This document shows, piece by piece, positions 9,894 through 20,704 of a DNA stretch of 64,000 bases. The translations under genes and the position numbers were made by a program. Source of the stretch: Candidatus Latescibacterota bacterium (GTDB taxonomy: Bacteria; Latescibacterota; UBA2968); assembly GCA_022821275.1 (NCBI GenBank), contig JAJEDY010000033.1:18780-82779 (forward strand). The letters run 5' to 3'. Within the stretch, counting starts at the first letter, position 1, and each line of letters opens with the position of its first letter. The notes below the pieces were generated by a model that saw nothing but the letters and a program-made list of their open reading frames with translations, was not told the origin of the DNA and made no database searches.

Positions 9894-11099
9894 ATGGCTA
9901 TGAACGCGATTGATTTGCCCGATGCGCGCGGGCATTTTGGGCCTTATGGCGGGCAGTATGTGCCCGAGACGCTTATGGCGCTGTTGGAAGATCTGGAGGC
10001 GGCTTATGGGAAGGCAAAGTGCGACCCAGAGTTCTGGGCTGAATTGGATCGATATTTGCGCGATTATGTCGGACGGCCCACGCCGCTTTATTTTGCCGAG
10101 CGGTTGACAGAAGAACTCGGCGGTCCTAAAATTTATCTCAAGCGCGAAGACCTCGCCCATACGGGGGCGCATAAAATCAATCATGCCATGGGACAGATTT
10201 TGCTCGCCAACCGGATGGGCAAGACGCGGATTATTGCCGAGACAGGTGCCGGACAACACGGCGTGGCAACGGCAACTGTGGCGGCGATGTTTGGTCTCAA
10301 GTGCGAAATTTACATGGGTGTTGAAGATATGGAACGGCAAGCGCTCAATGTGTTTCGCATGCGGCTTTTGGGTGCGAAAGTTACGGGTGTCCATTCGGGT
10401 AGCAAAACACTGAAGGATGCGATTAATGAGGCCATCCGCGACTGGGTGACCAATGTGGAGGATACGTTTTACATTTTTGGTTCGGTTTTGGGACCGCATC
10501 CGTATCCGATGATTGTGCGGGATTTTCAGCGGGTTATTGGCGTTGAAGCCCGTGCTCAAATTTTGGAGAGAGAGGGTCGATTGCCCGATGTGCTCGTCGC
10601 CTGTGTGGGTGGGGGAAGCAATTCTATCGGGTTGTTTCACGCTTTTTTGGATGATGCCGATGTGCAGATGATCGGTGTGGAGGCCGGTGGACACGGTATT
10701 GCGTCTGGCGAGCACGCCGCGCGGTTTAATGGCGGCGATTTGGGGGTTTTGCACGGTGCGCGCATTTATGTGTTGCAAAATGATGATGGACAGATCGCAT
10801 TGACGCATTCGGTATCGGCGGGTCTCGATTATTCGGGCGTGGGGCCAGAGCATTGTTATTTGCGAGATATGGCGCGTACGGCTTATACGTATGCGACGGA
10901 TGAGGAAGCTCTCAGTGCCTTTGAGTTGCTCAGTCATACCGAAGGGATTATTCCCGCTTTGGAGAGTTCACACGCTATTGCCCATGTTTGCAAGTTGGCA
11001 CCCGAGATGAGTCGAGATCAGATTGTGGTTGTCAATTTATCGGGACGGGGTGACAAAGATGTGCAACAGGCGGCGCGGTTTATAGAAGGAGTGAGATGA
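9894..11099 (+). CDS. trpB: Tryptophan synthase beta chain
   Basis: 401-aa PLP enzyme condensing indole with serine in the TrpAB complex. Seen: '[10 protein letters not shown]', '[12 protein letters not shown]', '[19 protein letters not shown]' with the PLP lysine, '[20 protein letters not shown]', the phosphate loop '[15 protein letters not shown]', 'GVEAGGHG', '[15 protein letters not shown]' and '[10 protein letters not shown]'. This is TrpB1 type by length and motifs. GAGAGGA precedes ATG 9894; a second ATG at 9900 is possible. Overlaps trpA by 4 bases. Confidence 0.97.
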
Positions 11100-11899
11100 C
11101 GCGGATTGGACGGCGGTTTGATGACTTGAGAAAAGCGGGTAGGGCGGGCTTTGTCGCCTATATTGCGGCGGGTGATCCGGACTTAAATACCACGTACCAG
11201 ATGGTGTTGGAATTGGATCGGCGAGGTGTGGATGTTCTGGAATTGGGTGTGCCTTTTTCAGATCCTCTGGCCGATGGTCCCGTGATTCAGGAGGCATCAC
11301 AACGCGCTTTGGCTGCTGGTGCCACGCTCGAGGGCGTGTTGTCTATGGTTGCAGATGTGCGGACTGAGACCGAAATCCCCATTGTGCTGTTTACGTATTA
11401 CAATCCGATTCATCGCTACGGTGTGGATTGCTTTGTAAAACGCGCTGCAGATGTGGGGGTCGATGGTGTTCTGATGCTGGATTTGCCTCCGGAAGAGGGC
11501 GGTGATTATATAGCGCAAATGAATGAGCACGGGCTGGATACGATTTTTCTGGTGACGCCTACTACGCGCGATGATCGGATGAAACTGATTGCGTCCCATA
11601 CCAGGGGATTTGTCTATTATGTGTCGCGCACCGGAGTGACGGGAGAGCGCGATTCTCTGGCAGATGAGATTCAAAGCAAGGTATCTGCGATATGCCAGTA
11701 CACAGATATGCCCATTGCCGTTGGGTTTGGTATTTCAACGCCCGAGCATGTGTCGGAAATTGCGCGATATGCCGATGCGGTTGTGGTTGGCAGCGCGATT
11801 GTGCGTCGCATTGGTGAGTTCCAATGCGATGCTGATCTGGTTGCAAAGGTGGGGGCTTTTGTCGGGTCTTTGATCGGCCCTTTGAGAGAGGGTGTGTAG
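11096..11899 (+). CDS. trpA: Tryptophan synthase alpha chain
   Basis: 267-aa TIM-barrel subunit that releases indole from indole-3-glycerol phosphate. Seen: '[12 protein letters not shown]', '[24 protein letters not shown]' with the catalytic Glu, '[13 protein letters not shown]', '[13 protein letters not shown]' with the catalytic Asp, '[13 protein letters not shown]', '[13 protein letters not shown]' and 'VVGSAIV'. ATGA overlap with trpB. Normal length. Confidence 0.97.
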
Positions 11900-11902
11900 G
11901 TT

Positions 11903-12184
11903 ATGGAGAAGGATCTGGATTTCTGGCGCGAGAAAATCGATGCTTTGGATGATCAGATTCTCGAGTTGCTCAATGAACGTGCCCGGTGTGCCTTGTCTGT
12001 GGGAAAAATTAAGAGCACCGAGGGTTTGCCCTTTCATGTCCCTGAACGAGAAACCCTGATTCTCAACCGCATTCGCGAATTGAATGGCGGGCCTTTGAGT
12101 CACGAAGCAGCGCAACGCATTTTTAGACAGATTATCGATGAGTCATTGCGGTTGGAAGAAGATCAAGCAGAGTCAGAGTCTTAA
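11903..12184 (+). CDS. Chorismate mutase (AroQ class)
   Basis: 93-aa all-helical protein that converts chorismate to prephenate, opening the Tyr/Phe branch. 'FWREKIDALDDQILELLNERARCALSVGKIK' is the AroQ helix-1 pattern with the active-site Arg and Lys; 'VPERETLILNRI' and 'AAQRIFRQIIDESLRLEED' make up the rest. A stand-alone domain, not fused to DAHP synthase or prephenate dehydratase. ATG 3 bases after the trpA stop. The adjacent DAHP synthase may form a complex with it, as free AroQ proteins do in several bacteria; that is inference. Confidence 0.92.
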   Translation: MEKDLDFWREKIDALDDQILELLNERARCALSVGKIKSTEGLPFHVPERETLILNRIRELNGGPLSHEAAQRIFRQIIDESLRLEEDQAESES

Positions 12185-12197
12185 AAAAGGTGTTATT

Positions 12198-13223
12198 ATG
12201 AGTTTCAAACGGATTCAGCCCATTCCCAGTGCAGAAGAAATCCAGGATGTTTTGCCACTGCCCGATGATTTGAAGGCTAAGAAGGAAGAACGCGATGCCG
12301 AGATTCGGGCTATTTTTGAGCGCAAGAGCGATAAGTTTTTGTTGGTTATTGGTCCTTGCTCGGCTCACAATGTCGATGCGGTGTGTGAATATGTGAATCG
12401 CCTATCGCGGCTTCAAGAGCAGGTGAAGGACAAGTTGGTGCTCGTGCCGCGGATTTATACCAATAAGCCGCGCACGACTGGCGAAGGGTATAAGGGCATG
12501 GCCCATCAGCCCGATCCCGAGGGTATGCCCGATATGGTTGTAGGGATTAAGACCATTCGACAGATGCAGATTCGCGCTTTTCGCGAGTCGCATTTGACGG
12601 CTGCCGATGAGATGCTCTATCCTTCGAATTTGCCTTATGTGGAGGATTTGCTGAGTTATATTGCCGTGGGGGCGCGGTCTGTTGAAAATCAGAATCATCG
12701 CCTGACTATTAGCGGTGTCGATGTGCCTGCGGGCATGAAAAACCCGACGGGTGGCGATCTGGATGTGATGTTCAATGCCATTTATGCAGCGCAAATGCCA
12801 CATGTGTTTTTTCACAATGGATGGGAAGTCAGTACGTCGGGTAATTCGTTGACGCATGCGGTGTTGCGCGGGATGTCGTATAATGGGCGGAGCGTACCCA
12901 ATTATCACTACGAAGATTTGATGCATGTTGCCGAGCAATATCAGGCGCGCAAGTTGAGCAATCCGACGATTATTGTGGATACCAATCACAATAATTCAGA
13001 TAAAATGTTTTCCGAACAGCCGCGCATTGGTCTGGAGGTGATGCGCAGCCGCCGCCATTCCCCGCTTCTTCACAATGTGGTGCGCGGGTTGATGGTGGAG
13101 AGCTATCTGGAGGAGGGCGCGCAAAAACCCGAAGAGGGGATATTTGGGAAGTCGATTACCGATCCGTGTCTGGGATGGGAAGATACGGAAGTGTTTGTGA
13201 AGGACCTGGCAGGTCTGGTTTAG
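12198..13223 (+). CDS. aroF: 3-deoxy-7-phosphoheptulonate (DAHP) synthase, class I
   Basis: 341-aa entry enzyme of the shikimate pathway (PEP + erythrose 4-phosphate). Seen: 'LLVIGPCSAHN', 'LVPRIYTNKPRTTGEGYKGMAHQPDPEG', 'GARSVENQNHR', 'GVDVPAGMKNPTGGD', 'PTIIVDTNHNNSDK' and 'GLMVESYLEEGAQ', the E. coli AroF/G/H type rather than the KDO8P-like short type. The tracked ORF starts at 12138 inside the chorismate mutase gene; ATG 12198 with AAAAGG upstream is the real start. Which effector inhibits it cannot be told from the sequence. Confidence 0.93.
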   Translation: MSFKRIQPIPSAEEIQDVLPLPDDLKAKKEERDAEIRAIFERKSDKFLLVIGPCSAHNVDAVCEYVNRLSRLQEQVKDKLVLVPRIYTNKPRTTGEGYKGMAHQPDPEGMPDMVVGIKTIRQMQIRAFRESHLTAADEMLYPSNLPYVEDLLSYIAVGARSVENQNHRLTISGVDVPAGMKNPTGGDLDVMFNAIYAAQMPHVFFHNGWEVSTSGNSLTHAVLRGMSYNGRSVPNYHYEDLMHVAEQYQARKLSNPTIIVDTNHNNSDKMFSEQPRIGLEVMRSRRHSPLLHNVVRGLMVESYLEEGAQKPEEGIFGKSITDPCLGWEDTEVFVKDLAGLV

Positions 13224-13229
13224 TATTTT

Positions 13230-14360
13230 ATGTCGTATCAGGTTATTTGTATGAACGATCCTCCATTTGCAGATGCCGCGATTGCCATTGTGGGTGTGGG
13301 GTTGATTGGTGGGTCGCTGGGGCTGGCGTTTAAGCGATTGGGTATTGGGCGCGAGATTATTGGTATTAGTCGCGCGGAGACCCTGCGAGAAGCCCGTGCG
13401 CTCGATGTGATCGATCGCGGTTATGAATACGACGCGATGGACAGTGGCGTAAAACGGTCAGATCTGGTATTTTTGTGTTCGCCCATTGTGCGTATTCTGG
13501 AGCAGTTGCCCGCGGTCGTGCAAGCGGCCTCGCCGGGTTGTGTTATTACAGATGTGGGCAGTACAAAGGGCGCGATTGTCGCATGTGCAGAACGGGTTGC
13601 GCGTGAAGGTGTGCATTTTGTGGGCGGGCACCCCATGGCGGGGTCGGAAAAGAGCGGCGTGGGGGCTGCCGATCCCTTTTTGTTTGAAAACGCGCTTTAT
13701 GTGCTTACGCCCGCAAGCGGTGTTCCCGATCAAATTGTGGATGTGCTCGCAGCACTGGTGCAATGCATTGGTGCGCGTTCTATGCGTATGGAAGCCGAGA
13801 CGCATGATCGGGTCGCTGCAACGGTGAGTCATTTGCCGCAGATGATGGCTACTACTCTCGTGGGATTGGTGGGCAGGCTCAATGAGGCCGATGGTCTTCC
13901 CCTGCAAATGGCAGCGGGAGGGTTCCGCGATTTGACGCGTATTGCCTCCAGTCCGTTTGCGATGTGGCGGGATATTTGTCAGACGAATGCCGGTCCTATT
14001 CGAGAGATGATCGATGCGTATCTCGACGCGCTTGTAGCGATACGAGATAAGGTGGATCGGGAAGCGTTATCAGAAGATTTTGACTATGCCAATCGCATTC
14101 GCGGGGAGATTCCCAGAGATTCCAAGGGTTTTTTGCATCCGCTTCACGAAATTTTGCTGGTGGTAGAAGACAAACCCGGTGTGATTGCCGATGTTGCTTC
14201 CCGGCTGTCTGCCGAAGGAATTAATATTGACGATATTGAAGTGCTGAAGGTGCGCGAAGGCGAAGGAGGGACGATTCGGATGGGGTTTGGACAGCAGGAG
14301 GAAGCCGATCGGTCTGTCGATATTTTGCGAGATGCGGGTTATCAAGTGCGGTTGCGTTAG
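13230..14360 (+). CDS. tyrA: Prephenate dehydrogenase with C-terminal ACT domain
   Basis: 376-aa NAD-dependent enzyme that makes 4-hydroxyphenylpyruvate from prephenate for tyrosine. Rossmann motif 'IAIVGVGLIGGSLGLAFKRLG'; 'VITDVGSTKGAIV', 'FVGGHPMAGSEKSGVGAADPFLFENA' and 'AATVSHLPQMMATTLV' carry the active site, with 'GGFRDLTRIASSPFAMWRDI' in the dimer domain. The last about 75 residues ('ILLVVEDKPGVIADVASRLSAEGINIDDIEV') form an ACT domain, the usual site for tyrosine feedback. Start uncertain: ATG 13230 lacks a clear Shine-Dalgarno, and ATG 13251 is an alternative that leaves the Rossmann fold intact. Confidence 0.94.
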   Translation: MSYQVICMNDPPFADAAIAIVGVGLIGGSLGLAFKRLGIGREIIGISRAETLREARALDVIDRGYEYDAMDSGVKRSDLVFLCSPIVRILEQLPAVVQAASPGCVITDVGSTKGAIVACAERVAREGVHFVGGHPMAGSEKSGVGAADPFLFENALYVLTPASGVPDQIVDVLAALVQCIGARSMRMEAETHDRVAATVSHLPQMMATTLVGLVGRLNEADGLPLQMAAGGFRDLTRIASSPFAMWRDICQTNAGPIREMIDAYLDALVAIRDKVDREALSEDFDYANRIRGEIPRDSKGFLHPLHEILLVVEDKPGVIADVASRLSAEGINIDDIEVLKVREGEGGTIRMGFGQQEEADRSVDILRDAGYQVRLR

Positions 14361-14370
14361 AGGGGTAAGT

Positions 14371-15030
14371 ATGTATGAGGTAAAAGAAGCACGTGGACTT
14401 ATTGGGGAATGCGATGTACCGGGGGATCCCGAGACCACACTGTATTTGCTCGGCGCTGCGGCGATGTTATCGCAGTCGGATTTGACCCTTCACTGCGTGG
14501 GCGACGATTGGAAGACCCGACGCGCGTTGGATTTGTTGCGGCGGTTGAATGCACAATTGGATATTCAGGTGACGCGATCAAAGTCTGAGGTGACGCGTAC
14601 GGTTAAAGTTCAGGGATCTGAATTGCGGCGTACGCGCATAGGGGGTGAGCAGACGGATCTTTTTATTCGTGAAGTGCCTTTTCTCGCTGTGATGGGTACA
14701 CAGGCTGCAGGCGAGATGGTTATTCGGGATGGAGAGGGTTTGCGTCAGGGAGAGGTTGACCGCCTATCATTGACGATTCAGAATTTGCGTCAAATGGGGG
14801 CCAAGGTAGGCGAAATGCCCGATGGTCTGGTGGTGCAGGGGCCTGTGCGCCTTGAAGGTATAGAGGTCGATGCCGGCGGCGATGCCCGCACGGGGTTGAC
14901 CTTTGCACTGGCGGGATTGATAGCCGAGGGCGAAACTCAGGTGTCGAATACAGGTGATATGTGCCGCGATTTCGCCGCGTTATTCGATTGTTTATCTACT
15001 GTTGTTCAACCAAAAGAGGTGAAAGTATGA
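14371..15030 (+). CDS. Half-length EPSP-synthase-like protein, probably catalytically inactive
   Basis: 219-aa protein that aligns by eye with only the second half (about residues 210-428) of AroA. 'CDVPGDPETTLYLLGAAAMLSQ' matches VPGDISSAAFFLAA; 'REVPFLAVMGTQAAGEMVIRDGEGLRQGEVDRLSLTIQNLRQMGAKVGE' matches the DEIP...LKVKETNR block. The catalytic Asp of 'DEIP' is Arg100, the Lys of 'KET(N/D)R' is Gly, and the His of 'DHR' is Ala172 (Arg173 retained). The first half of AroA is absent from the 80 bases upstream and from tyrA. ATG 14371 follows AGGGG. It sits exactly where aroA is expected in an aro operon. It may be a pseudoenzyme, a regulator, or a decayed remnant; the open frame and the coupled downstream start argue against simple decay. 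Confidence 0.75.
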   Translation: MYEVKEARGLIGECDVPGDPETTLYLLGAAAMLSQSDLTLHCVGDDWKTRRALDLLRRLNAQLDIQVTRSKSEVTRTVKVQGSELRRTRIGGEQTDLFIREVPFLAVMGTQAAGEMVIRDGEGLRQGEVDRLSLTIQNLRQMGAKVGEMPDGLVVQGPVRLEGIEVDAGGDARTGLTFALAGLIAEGETQVSNTGDMCRDFAALFDCLSTVVQPKEVKV

Positions 15031-15182
15031 AGATACTTTTTAAGCTCGCGTTATTTGCGATTTTGATGATTCTGGGCGGTGTGGCATTTATACGCTATAC
15101 ATACAACTGCTCGTGGAAGGAAAGTTTTGATATTGCCGATGAGTTTGTGAATGATTTGCTGGATGGCAATCGAAGGTCTTGA
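15027..15182 (+). CDS. 51-aa single-pass membrane protein
   Basis: Short ORF beginning 'MKILFKLALFAILMILGGVAFIRY', with one membrane helix (about residues 5-23) after a basic N-terminus, then a charged tail 'KESFDIADEFVNDLLDGNRRS'. The ATG overlaps the stop of the EPSP-synthase-like gene (ATGA) and its TGA overlaps the aroE ATG (TGATG), so it is translationally coupled on both sides. AGAGGTG precedes it. The tracked ORF (14961 start) extends into the upstream gene and is not the real start. No family recognised; function unknown. Confidence 0.7.
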   Translation: MKILFKLALFAILMILGGVAFIRYTYNCSWKESFDIADEFVNDLLDGNRRS

Positions 15183-16060
15183 TGAATATTCGCGCAACAA
15201 GCCAGGTGCTGGGCGTTATAGGCGACCCGGTGGCTCATTCGTTTTCTCCCGATATGCACAATGCCGCAATCGCCGCATTAGATGTAGATTATTGTTATGT
15301 GGCTTTTCACGTGTTGCCCGACCGCGTGGGCGAGGCGATGAAGGGGTTGCGCGGGCTGAATATTCGCGGGTTAAATGTGACGATTCCGCACAAGCTGGCG
15401 GTGATGGAACACATGGACCGCATTTCAGAAGAAGCACTGGCTGTGGGTGCGGTTAATACCATTTCGCGCGAAGGCGATGAGTTGGTCGGATATAATACAG
15501 ATGTCTATGGCGTCTTGACGGCATTGCGCGATATTGCGGGGATTGTGACATTTCCCGCGCATTGTGTGGTGCTCGGCGCAGGTGGGGCTGCTCGTGCTGT
15601 GACGTATGCGCTGGGAACGCAAGACGGGGTGCAGCGGGTGACGATTTTGAATCGCACGGTTGAACGCGCTGAGGATCTGGCGGTAGATATGGAAAATATA
15701 ACGGGTACCAAAATGGATGTGGGAGCACTGGATGCAGATACGCAATGCAGGGCGTTTGCCGATGCGGGCGTGGTTGTGAATACCACTTCGCTGGGGATGT
15801 ATCCAGAGGTGAATGTCTCGCCCCTTGCCGATGTGCGCGCTGTCCATCCGGATTTGGTGCTTTACGATACGGTGTTCAATCCGCTGGAAACGCAGTTGAT
15901 GCGCGCGTTTCAATCGGTTGGAGTGCCGGCTTTTGGAGGGCTGGATATGCTGGTCTTTCAAGGGGCGCGGTCTTTTGCGATCTGGACGGGTGTTGAGCCA
16001 CCGACTGATGTGATGAAAAATGTCGTTGTCAAACGGGTCGGCACAAAAAATGAGAGGTGA
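15182..16060 (+). CDS. aroE: Shikimate dehydrogenase
   Basis: 292-aa NADPH-dependent enzyme that reduces 3-dehydroshikimate. Seen: 'GVIGDPVAHSFSPDMHNAAI' (substrate Ser pair region), 'GLNVTIPHKLAVMEHMD' with the catalytic Lys, 'AVGAVNTIS', 'YNTDVYGVLTAL' with the catalytic Asp, 'VVLGAGGAARAVTYAL' (nucleotide loop), 'NTTSLGM', 'VLYDTVFNPLETQLM' and 'FGGLDMLVFQGARSF'. ATG 15182 overlaps the preceding stop; the track's TTG 15179 is one codon earlier. Normal length. Confidence 0.95.
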   Translation: MNIRATSQVLGVIGDPVAHSFSPDMHNAAIAALDVDYCYVAFHVLPDRVGEAMKGLRGLNIRGLNVTIPHKLAVMEHMDRISEEALAVGAVNTISREGDELVGYNTDVYGVLTALRDIAGIVTFPAHCVVLGAGGAARAVTYALGTQDGVQRVTILNRTVERAEDLAVDMENITGTKMDVGALDADTQCRAFADAGVVVNTTSLGMYPEVNVSPLADVRAVHPDLVLYDTVFNPLETQLMRAFQSVGVPAFGGLDMLVFQGARSFAIWTGVEPPTDVMKNVVVKRVGTKNER

Positions 16061-19049: not shown

Positions 19050-19598
19050 GTGTTTGATCTACCTGATAAACCCATATTTCTCACCGGTTTTATGGCTACT
19101 GGGAAGACCAGAGTTGGGCGCATTTTGGCCGGGTGGTTGAAGCGGACCTTTGTCGATACGGATGAATTGCTGGTCGATGCTGCTGGGAAAACAATTCCCG
19201 AGATTTTTGAACAAGACGGTGAAACCGCGTTTCGCCAGTTGGAACACCAGGCGGTTGTCGTGGCTTCGAAGATGGACAATGTGATCGTTTCTCTCGGCGG
19301 TGGTGCTATTACTCAGGAGCGGAATTGGGAAGTTATTCGCAAGACCGGCGTGTGTCTGTGTTTCCGCGCTTCTGTCGATACGATTTTTGAACGGGTCAGT
19401 CGCAAGCGCGATGAAAGGCCCTTGCTGGCCGGGCTGGATGATGAGGATTTGAAGAACAAAATTGAGGTGATGATGGCAGAACGAGAGCGTTTTTATGCGC
19501 GTGCAGATGCGTTTGCGACTTCGACAAATGATTGCGCGCCCGAAGATACGGCAGAGACAGCGCTGATTGAATTACAGCGCGTTCTGGATCGGGATTGA
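19050..19598 (+). CDS. aroK: Shikimate kinase
   Basis: 182-aa P-loop kinase phosphorylating shikimate. Seen: 'LTGFMATGKTRVGRILAGWL' (Walker A), 'FVDTDELLVDAAGKTIPEIFEQDGETAFRQLE' (shikimate-binding Asp and Arg), 'VSLGGGAIT' and the lid 'SRKRDERPLLAG'. GTG start, GGAAGAA upstream. TGA overlaps the region just before the aroB ATG. Normal length. Confidence 0.94.
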   Translation: MFDLPDKPIFLTGFMATGKTRVGRILAGWLKRTFVDTDELLVDAAGKTIPEIFEQDGETAFRQLEHQAVVVASKMDNVIVSLGGGAITQERNWEVIRKTGVCLCFRASVDTIFERVSRKRDERPLLAGLDDEDLKNKIEVMMAERERFYARADAFATSTNDCAPEDTAETALIELQRVLDRD

Positions 19599-19600
19599 TA

Positions 19601-20704
19601 ATGGAAACGGTGACGGTTGATTTAGGTGATCGAAGTTACGATATTTTAATCGGTCGCGATTGTTTGCGCGATTTGGGAGATCTGTATGTAGAGCGAGGGT
19701 TGGGAGAAACAGCGGCGATTGTGACCAATCCGACAGTTGCCGCGCGCTATCTCGATACGGTTCAGCAGAGTCTCGCGCGCGCTGGTGTGAAGGTTGTGGT
19801 CGTGACTGTGCCCGATGGCGAGCAATACAAGACGTTTGAGACGGCTGGGCAGATCTACGGCGATTTGATCGCGGCGGGATTGGATCGCAAATCCTGTGTT
19901 GTGACATTGGGCGGCGGTGTGGTAGGCGATATGGCTGGTTTTGTCGCTGCGACGTATTTGAGAGGTGTTGATTTTGTGCAGGTGCCCACGACGCTGGAAG
20001 CGCAGGTCGATGCCAGTGTGGGGGGCAAAACAGCTGTGGATCACGTTTTGGGAAAGAACATGATCGGTGCTTTTCACCAGCCAAAGTTGGTGTTGATCGA
20101 TACGGCTACACTCGATACCTTACCCAAACGCGAAGTGCGGGCGGGTATGGCCGAGGTGATCAAGCACGGTATTATACGCGATTCCGGTCTGGTGGTGTTT
20201 TTGGAAGATTGTATTGAGGCCGCGGCAAATTTAAGCCTGCCTGCGGATCAGATCAATTGGCTCATCGCCCAGCAGTGTCGCATCAAGGCGGAGGTTGTGG
20301 CTGCCGATGAAACCGAGAAGGGCTTGCGCGAAATTTTGAATTACGGCCATACGGTAGGACACGCGCTGGAGGTGGTGACGCATTACGATTATTACAAACA
20401 CGGCGAGGCGGTGTGTTTGGGGATGTTGGCCGCAGGGTATATCGCAGTGCAAAAGGGGATGTGGTCGCGGGATGCGTTTGAGCGGCAAAATGCACTTATT
20501 GCCCGTCTGGGCATTCCCAAAGGCGTGCCCGATTTGAAGGTCGATGAGGTGTTGGCGCGAATGGCAAGTGATAAGAAAGCGCGGGACGGTGTCATCCGCT
20601 TTGTATTGCCCGAGCGGATTGGAAAAATTGTGCCGCGAGATGATGTGACGCACGAAGAAATCGTTGCGGGAATTCAATATATGCAGAATCAGGCATTGGG
20701 ATAG
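19601..20704 (+). CDS. aroB: 3-dehydroquinate synthase
   Basis: 367-aa NAD- and metal-dependent enzyme cyclising DAHP. Seen: 'VPDGEQYKTFETAGQIYGDLIAAGLDRKS', 'VVTLGGGVVGDMAGFVAATYLRGVDFVQVPTTLEAQVDASVGGKTAVDH', 'KNMIGAFHQPKLVLIDTATLDTLP', 'GMAEVIKHGII' and the metal ligands in 'ILNYGHTVGHALE' and 'YKHGEAVCLGMLAA'. The track begins at a TTG at 19595; ATG 19601 is preferred, 2 bases after the aroK stop. Last recognised shikimate-pathway gene of the operon; aroC, aroD/aroQ (DHQ dehydratase), a full aroA and pheA were not seen in this window. Confidence 0.95.
   Translation: METVTVDLGDRSYDILIGRDCLRDLGDLYVERGLGETAAIVTNPTVAARYLDTVQQSLARAGVKVVVVTVPDGEQYKTFETAGQIYGDLIAAGLDRKSCVVTLGGGVVGDMAGFVAATYLRGVDFVQVPTTLEAQVDASVGGKTAVDHVLGKNMIGAFHQPKLVLIDTATLDTLPKREVRAGMAEVIKHGIIRDSGLVVFLEDCIEAAANLSLPADQINWLIAQQCRIKAEVVAADETEKGLREILNYGHTVGHALEVVTHYDYYKHGEAVCLGMLAAGYIAVQKGMWSRDAFERQNALIARLGIPKGVPDLKVDEVLARMASDKKARDGVIRFVLPERIGKIVPRDDVTHEEIVAGIQYMQNQALG

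Follow-up and report, generated by a model that had tools for sequence, protein, structure and literature searches.

The aromatic gene cluster of a Candidatus Latescibacterota genome harbours a catalytically dead, one-domain homolog of EPSP synthase (EPSPS, AroA), here termed psAroA-half, which on balance is probably a pseudoenzyme derived from a class II AroA and now serving the aromatic pathway as a protein-binding subunit without catalytic function. It is encoded on the forward strand at positions 14371..15030 of the window, the stretch of 64,000 nucleotides of contig JAJEDY010000033.1 that was analysed, and it belongs to what is, judged from sequence comparison, an ancient pseudoenzyme clade (psAroA) of this deep-branching bacterial group. 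EPSP synthase is the target of glyphosate and among the most studied enzymes. In the full-text literature searched, EPSP synthase was not found in combination with the term pseudoenzyme, nor was a description found of a catalytically inactive EPSPS paralog or of a dead, domain-deleted EPSPS kept by selection, and novelty is claimed provisionally.

The ORF is real, opening with ATG and encoding 219 aa in an intact frame. Its product matches positions 219-399 of 415 of the TIGR01356 aroA model (E 6e-29) and positions 225-411 of 417 of the Pfam EPSP_synthase model (E 2e-26), and the 101 bits it reaches against TIGR01356 lie far under the curated cutoff of 287 bits. The initial annotation had described catalytic residues replaced amid conserved neighbours, and this description holds: in an alignment with intact AroA, D313 is replaced by R, K340 by G and H385 by A, while the equivalents of E341, R344, D384 and R386 are kept. 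The change at K340 alone is weak evidence of inactivity, since H or Q occupies this position in many otherwise intact AroA of Latescibacterota (L001 and its orthologs). The domain II residues of the substrate and catalytic set are missing altogether. A member of the AroA family would be expected to comprise two domains of together about 430 aa, to carry K22, R27, R124, S169-Q171, D313, K340, E341, R344, H385 and R386, and to exceed the curated score cutoff; psAroA-half consists of domain I only and falls short in residues and in score, and what it shares with AroA is the homologous EPSPS domain fold, as seen in the Pfam match and in a Foldseek probability of 1.00.

The claim that the protein aligns with the second half of AroA only stands for its larger part, EPSPS domain I (the C-terminal domain), which spans 14428..15027 according to profile matches and structure prediction and includes the lost catalytic positions, but not for residues 1-19 (14371..14427), which in the alignment correspond to the N-terminal strand of full-length psAroA. 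These residues score 57-64 against the N-terminus of three relatives (G011, G013, G014) and 20-31 against the middle of the same proteins, the values for G013 being 64 and 31, respectively. Since residues 1-19 match the N-terminus and the remainder matches domain I, the middle of the protein, domain II, has been excised; the junction coincides with a PGD motif (residues 17-19), and the alignment suggests that the internal block was removed at this repeated motif, which opens both EPSPS halves. In EPSPS the N-terminal strand is woven into domain I, so that psAroA-half would represent a complete domain. Structure prediction, which had been proposed at the outset, agrees: the AlphaFold model (pLDDT 94.8, pTM 0.91) predicts a complete EPSPS domain I, and its best Foldseek matches are class II EPSPS (TM 0.80, to the B. 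halodurans enzyme 3rmt). For a full-length sister protein the two-domain fold is predicted to be kept (pLDDT 93.9). Compared with class II EPSPS (besides 3rmt, the S. pneumoniae and C. burnetii enzymes 1rf4 and 3roi and the TyrA-AroA type of NCBIfam PRK14806), psAroA-half thus has the same domain I fold, approximately 30% sequence identity and a like neighbourhood beside tyrA and aroE, and differs in the absence of domain II, the three replaced residues and the low score. MurA, the UDP-GlcNAc enolpyruvyl transferase, has the same superfamily fold and is a weaker match (51 vs 101 bits).

With the Pfam model, three genes of the EPSPS family are found in the window genome (G000): psAroA-half (C20), a separate MurA (C62) and an intact AroA (C54), the full-length gene that the initial annotation had suggested looking for. 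This intact AroA is unlinked to the aromatic cluster and is class I-like, with approximately 335-350 bits to the V. cholerae, plant and E. coli enzymes. A split functional enzyme, in which a gene elsewhere would supply the missing domain and the two parts would assemble into a working AroA, has next to no probability: no supporting point was found for it, no detached psAroA N-domain was detected when the genome was searched with that domain from a full-length relative, domain I itself is without the catalytic residues, and an intact AroA exists alongside. Decay into a pseudogene is ruled out as well, since psAroA-half is present, stop-free and of the same length, in 10 of 10 congeners (77-96% identity) and evolves under purifying selection, with a median pairwise dN/dS of 0.143 among congeners, about equal to that of aroE (0.146); tyrA (0.096) and the small ORF downstream (0.108) were measured in the same way. 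The branch lengths of psAroA are similar to those of active enzymes. An assembly error was rejected because the same arrangement recurs in many assemblies, including the single-contig ones G007, G008, G037 and G061. The split and decay scenarios, which the initial annotation had named as capable of overturning its proposal, both failed, and the proposed pseudoenzyme is supported at the level of sequence by the intact AroA elsewhere, the congeneric orthologs and the selection acting on them.

The protein is part of a wider group. Searches with TIGR01356 found psAroA in 44 of the 47 genomes of the class and in three of the four genomes of family f7 (families are numbered here), without a match in G023, G032 and G033, genomes that are 73-86% complete; in G038 and G039 the gene is cut by contig ends. 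Most members are full length (407-447 aa), equally devoid of catalytic residues, and reach 119-175 bits, compared with the TIGR01356 cutoff of 287. In these full-length forms the equivalents of K22, R27, R124 and Q171 are almost all lost, and across the relatives K340 is mostly G, the H385 position is A, V, P, S, T or G, the D313 position is R, C, Q, S, N or D (mostly D in f4, and N or D in the majority of the other full-length forms), and the equivalents of R344 and R386 are missing in many. The loss of catalytic residues is therefore conserved across orthologs, half-length and full-length and including family f7, while frames are intact, no stop was found in any genome examined, and purifying selection acts in several species, which is what would be expected of a pseudoenzyme. 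All psAroA genes checked lie between tyrA and aroE, and nearly all genomes with a full-length psAroA carry a separate intact AroA. A scan of genome contigs with a genus-level query matched near relatives only.

In a tree of domain I, a single clade (UFBoot 99) unites the dead proteins of families f1-f4 and f7; its sister (UFBoot 91) consists of the class II AroA of f6, f8 and f9 (e.g. L172), whose catalytic residues, unlike those of psAroA, are largely intact. The f8 protein scores 501 bits against the TyrA-AroA model PRK14806, which places it in class II, and no class I AroA was found in the f6, f8 and f9 genomes with an intact class II AroA. Within this sister group, the f6 proteins (L156-L158, 455-457 aa in the alignment) carry T at the Q171 position, reading S-A-T where S-S-Q or S-A-Q is expected. 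In f8 and f9 the gene for the intact class II AroA immediately precedes aroE, which bears out the earlier remark that psAroA-half sits where aroA should be. psAroA probably descends from the class II AroA native to the phylum, and it stayed beside tyrA and aroE after the loss of its catalytic residues. On the simplest reading, catalysis passed to another AroA, either incoming or a second copy, and the resident class II enzyme was retained for another role, although the direction and timing of this takeover are inferred. The f4 genomes contain two distantly related types of intact AroA, approximately 33% and 53% identical to that of the window genome (L097-L106 vs L091-L096), which suggests that the working AroA has been exchanged repeatedly while the dead protein persisted. 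A third EPSPS-like paralog in f4 genomes turned out to be MurA.

These data also bear on whether, as the initial annotation had proposed, psAroA regulates AroA, here the active class I enzyme, its domain I pairing with that enzyme or competing for its domain interface. We regard this as unlikely: the two proteins share a fold and their genes co-occur in nearly all psAroA genomes, but the active AroA is unlinked and of the other class, its type varies between lineages while the pseudoenzyme stays, and the two show no rate covariation (-0.07).

The loss of domain II appears to have happened more than once. A genome of family f3, G021, also encodes a half-length psAroA (227 aa), which branches outside f1 and f2 together (UFBoot 96), while the window genus nests among full-length forms; because the two halves are separate in the tree, domain II was lost twice unless the full length was regained, the second loss being represented by this single genome. 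A detached N-domain was considered for G021 and rejected, since the region between tyrA and psAroA (L025:198-1359) holds unrelated ORFs instead. Two of these were named by eye, a short HicB-like ORF at 198-407 and an ORF resembling kinases of the aminoglycoside-phosphotransferase type at 397-1359. In full-length psAroA, conservation is higher in domain I than in domain II, both between f1 and f2 (0.49 vs 0.38) and within f1 (0.54 vs 0.37), whereas in active AroA the contrast is small (0.65/0.60 and 0.65/0.64), which indicates that selection on the dead forms acts mainly on domain I.

The genes around psAroA-half form an aromatic supercluster on the forward strand. It begins with trpB and trpA (9894..11899, named by sequence and by gene order in relatives) and continues with a type II chorismate mutase (11903..12184, from a profile match and the loci of relatives), a DAHP synthase (12195..13223, with an unsettled start codon, the automatic ORF beginning at 12138) and tyrA, a prephenate dehydrogenase with an ACT domain (13230..14360). 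There follow psAroA-half, a protein of 51 aa (15027..15182) and the shikimate dehydrogenase gene aroE (15182..16060), and downstream of aroE lie ubiE, an unnamed ORF, argS and, at the end, aroK and aroB (19050..20704, again named by sequence and by the order in relatives). Ten bases separate the end of tyrA from the start of psAroA-half, whose stop overlaps the next start in an ATGA at 15027-15030, so that the frame is indeed coupled to its neighbours as first described. The ATGA overlap and the tight spacing recur in locus L110; a scan for promoters and terminators gave no usable signal. Such an arrangement might lead one to consider psAroA-half a relic kept only to preserve translational coupling to the small ORF and aroE. 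However, a spacer would leave the amino acid sequence unconstrained, and the dN/dS equal to that of aroE, the strong class-wide conservation, the well-folded predicted domain and the lack of stops in every genome make this very improbable.

The 51-aa protein that overlaps psAroA by the ATGA and aroE by one base belongs to an unannotated family of small membrane proteins (46-51 aa), conserved in relatives and present in 50 of the 64 genomes of the phylum. One likely membrane stretch was judged by eye, and the alignment reveals the invariant core GG...I...Y..SW.E...IA..F..D. NCBIfam yields no match to the protein and Pfam none above cutoff, and a plasmid search returned none either. It follows psAroA in the loci compared from f1-f4 and f7, while in f6 it occurs away from the aromatic genes and in genomes without psAroA. 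The f6 loci L133, L134 and L135 have it beside fmt (methionyl-tRNA formyltransferase) and deformylase genes. The idea that it is an obligate partner of psAroA is weakened by these f6 loci, from which it follows that the small protein has some role of its own.

Concerning function, the loss of domain II on two occasions under strong selection suggests a non-enzymatic helper role. As a protein-binding subunit, psAroA would act as a scaffold or allosteric modulator of enzymes encoded in the same aromatic cluster, with TyrA or AroE the likelier partners on the basis of their flanking position alone; domain I would carry the interaction, and domain II would have become dispensable once substrate binding ceased to matter. 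Proximity in the operon is no proof that the proteins physically associate. Rate covariation calculated from branch lengths in 13 genomes gave no signal for any neighbour or for class I AroA, and a pairwise version in nine genomes, in which TyrA ranked first (0.63), is unreliable and disagrees with the former. A comparison of the strongly conserved residues, few of which are newly fixed in psAroA, pointed to no interaction site. A precedent by analogy may be HisZ, a non-catalytic paralog that acts with HisG as a regulatory subunit in amino acid biosynthesis; it would resemble psAroA as a dead enzyme paralog retained in a biosynthetic cluster and differs in fold and pathway.

Two further explanations were considered. 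Other catalysis by domain I alone is possible, and R50, R57, R119/D120, R140 and a VGE(M/F/Y)P(D/E)GLV strand are strictly conserved, which could be taken to reflect an active site rebuilt on domain I for a new activity. However, active class II AroA already has almost all of the strongly conserved residues of psAroA, these mostly included; few are newly fixed, and no new active site is seen on that account. Since the former active-site positions D313 and H385 vary freely and a new cluster of invariant polar residues is not seen, a catalyst of this kind appears distinctly unlikely. The initial annotation had also raised binding of shikimate 3-phosphate (S3P). E. coli EPSPS contacts S3P mainly through domain II; this domain is missing here, and in the full-length relatives the S3P residues are mutated. 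psAroA-half, as far as its sequence tells, lacks the contact residues and is thus unlikely to bind S3P. A broader version, in which the protein senses a pathway ligand such as PEP, chorismate or an aromatic amino acid and signals to the neighbouring enzymes, would accord with its position inside the aromatic cluster and with the survival of the E341, R344, D384 and R386 equivalents in the window protein. The disappearance of R344 and R386 from many relatives, together with the same state of the S3P residues, leaves such a sensor as something of an outside chance. A protein-binding helper therefore remains the preferred reading.

Taken together, living genomes preserve successive stages from an intact class II enzyme through a dead full-length protein to a dead single domain, the last step having been taken twice, and they are well suited to the question of how an unrelated copy comes to supplant an essential enzyme and why the displaced one is kept. 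They also make it possible to test readily, in a phylum that is uncultured, whether the shikimate pathway is controlled or assembled by non-catalytic means. More speculatively, and with a probability that we consider low, the clade-wide EPSPS pseudoenzyme and the coupled membrane protein of 46-51 aa might organise the aromatic pathway at the membrane as an anchored shikimate metabolon; if this were true, the independent losses of domain II would show that one EPSPS domain is enough as a scaffold.
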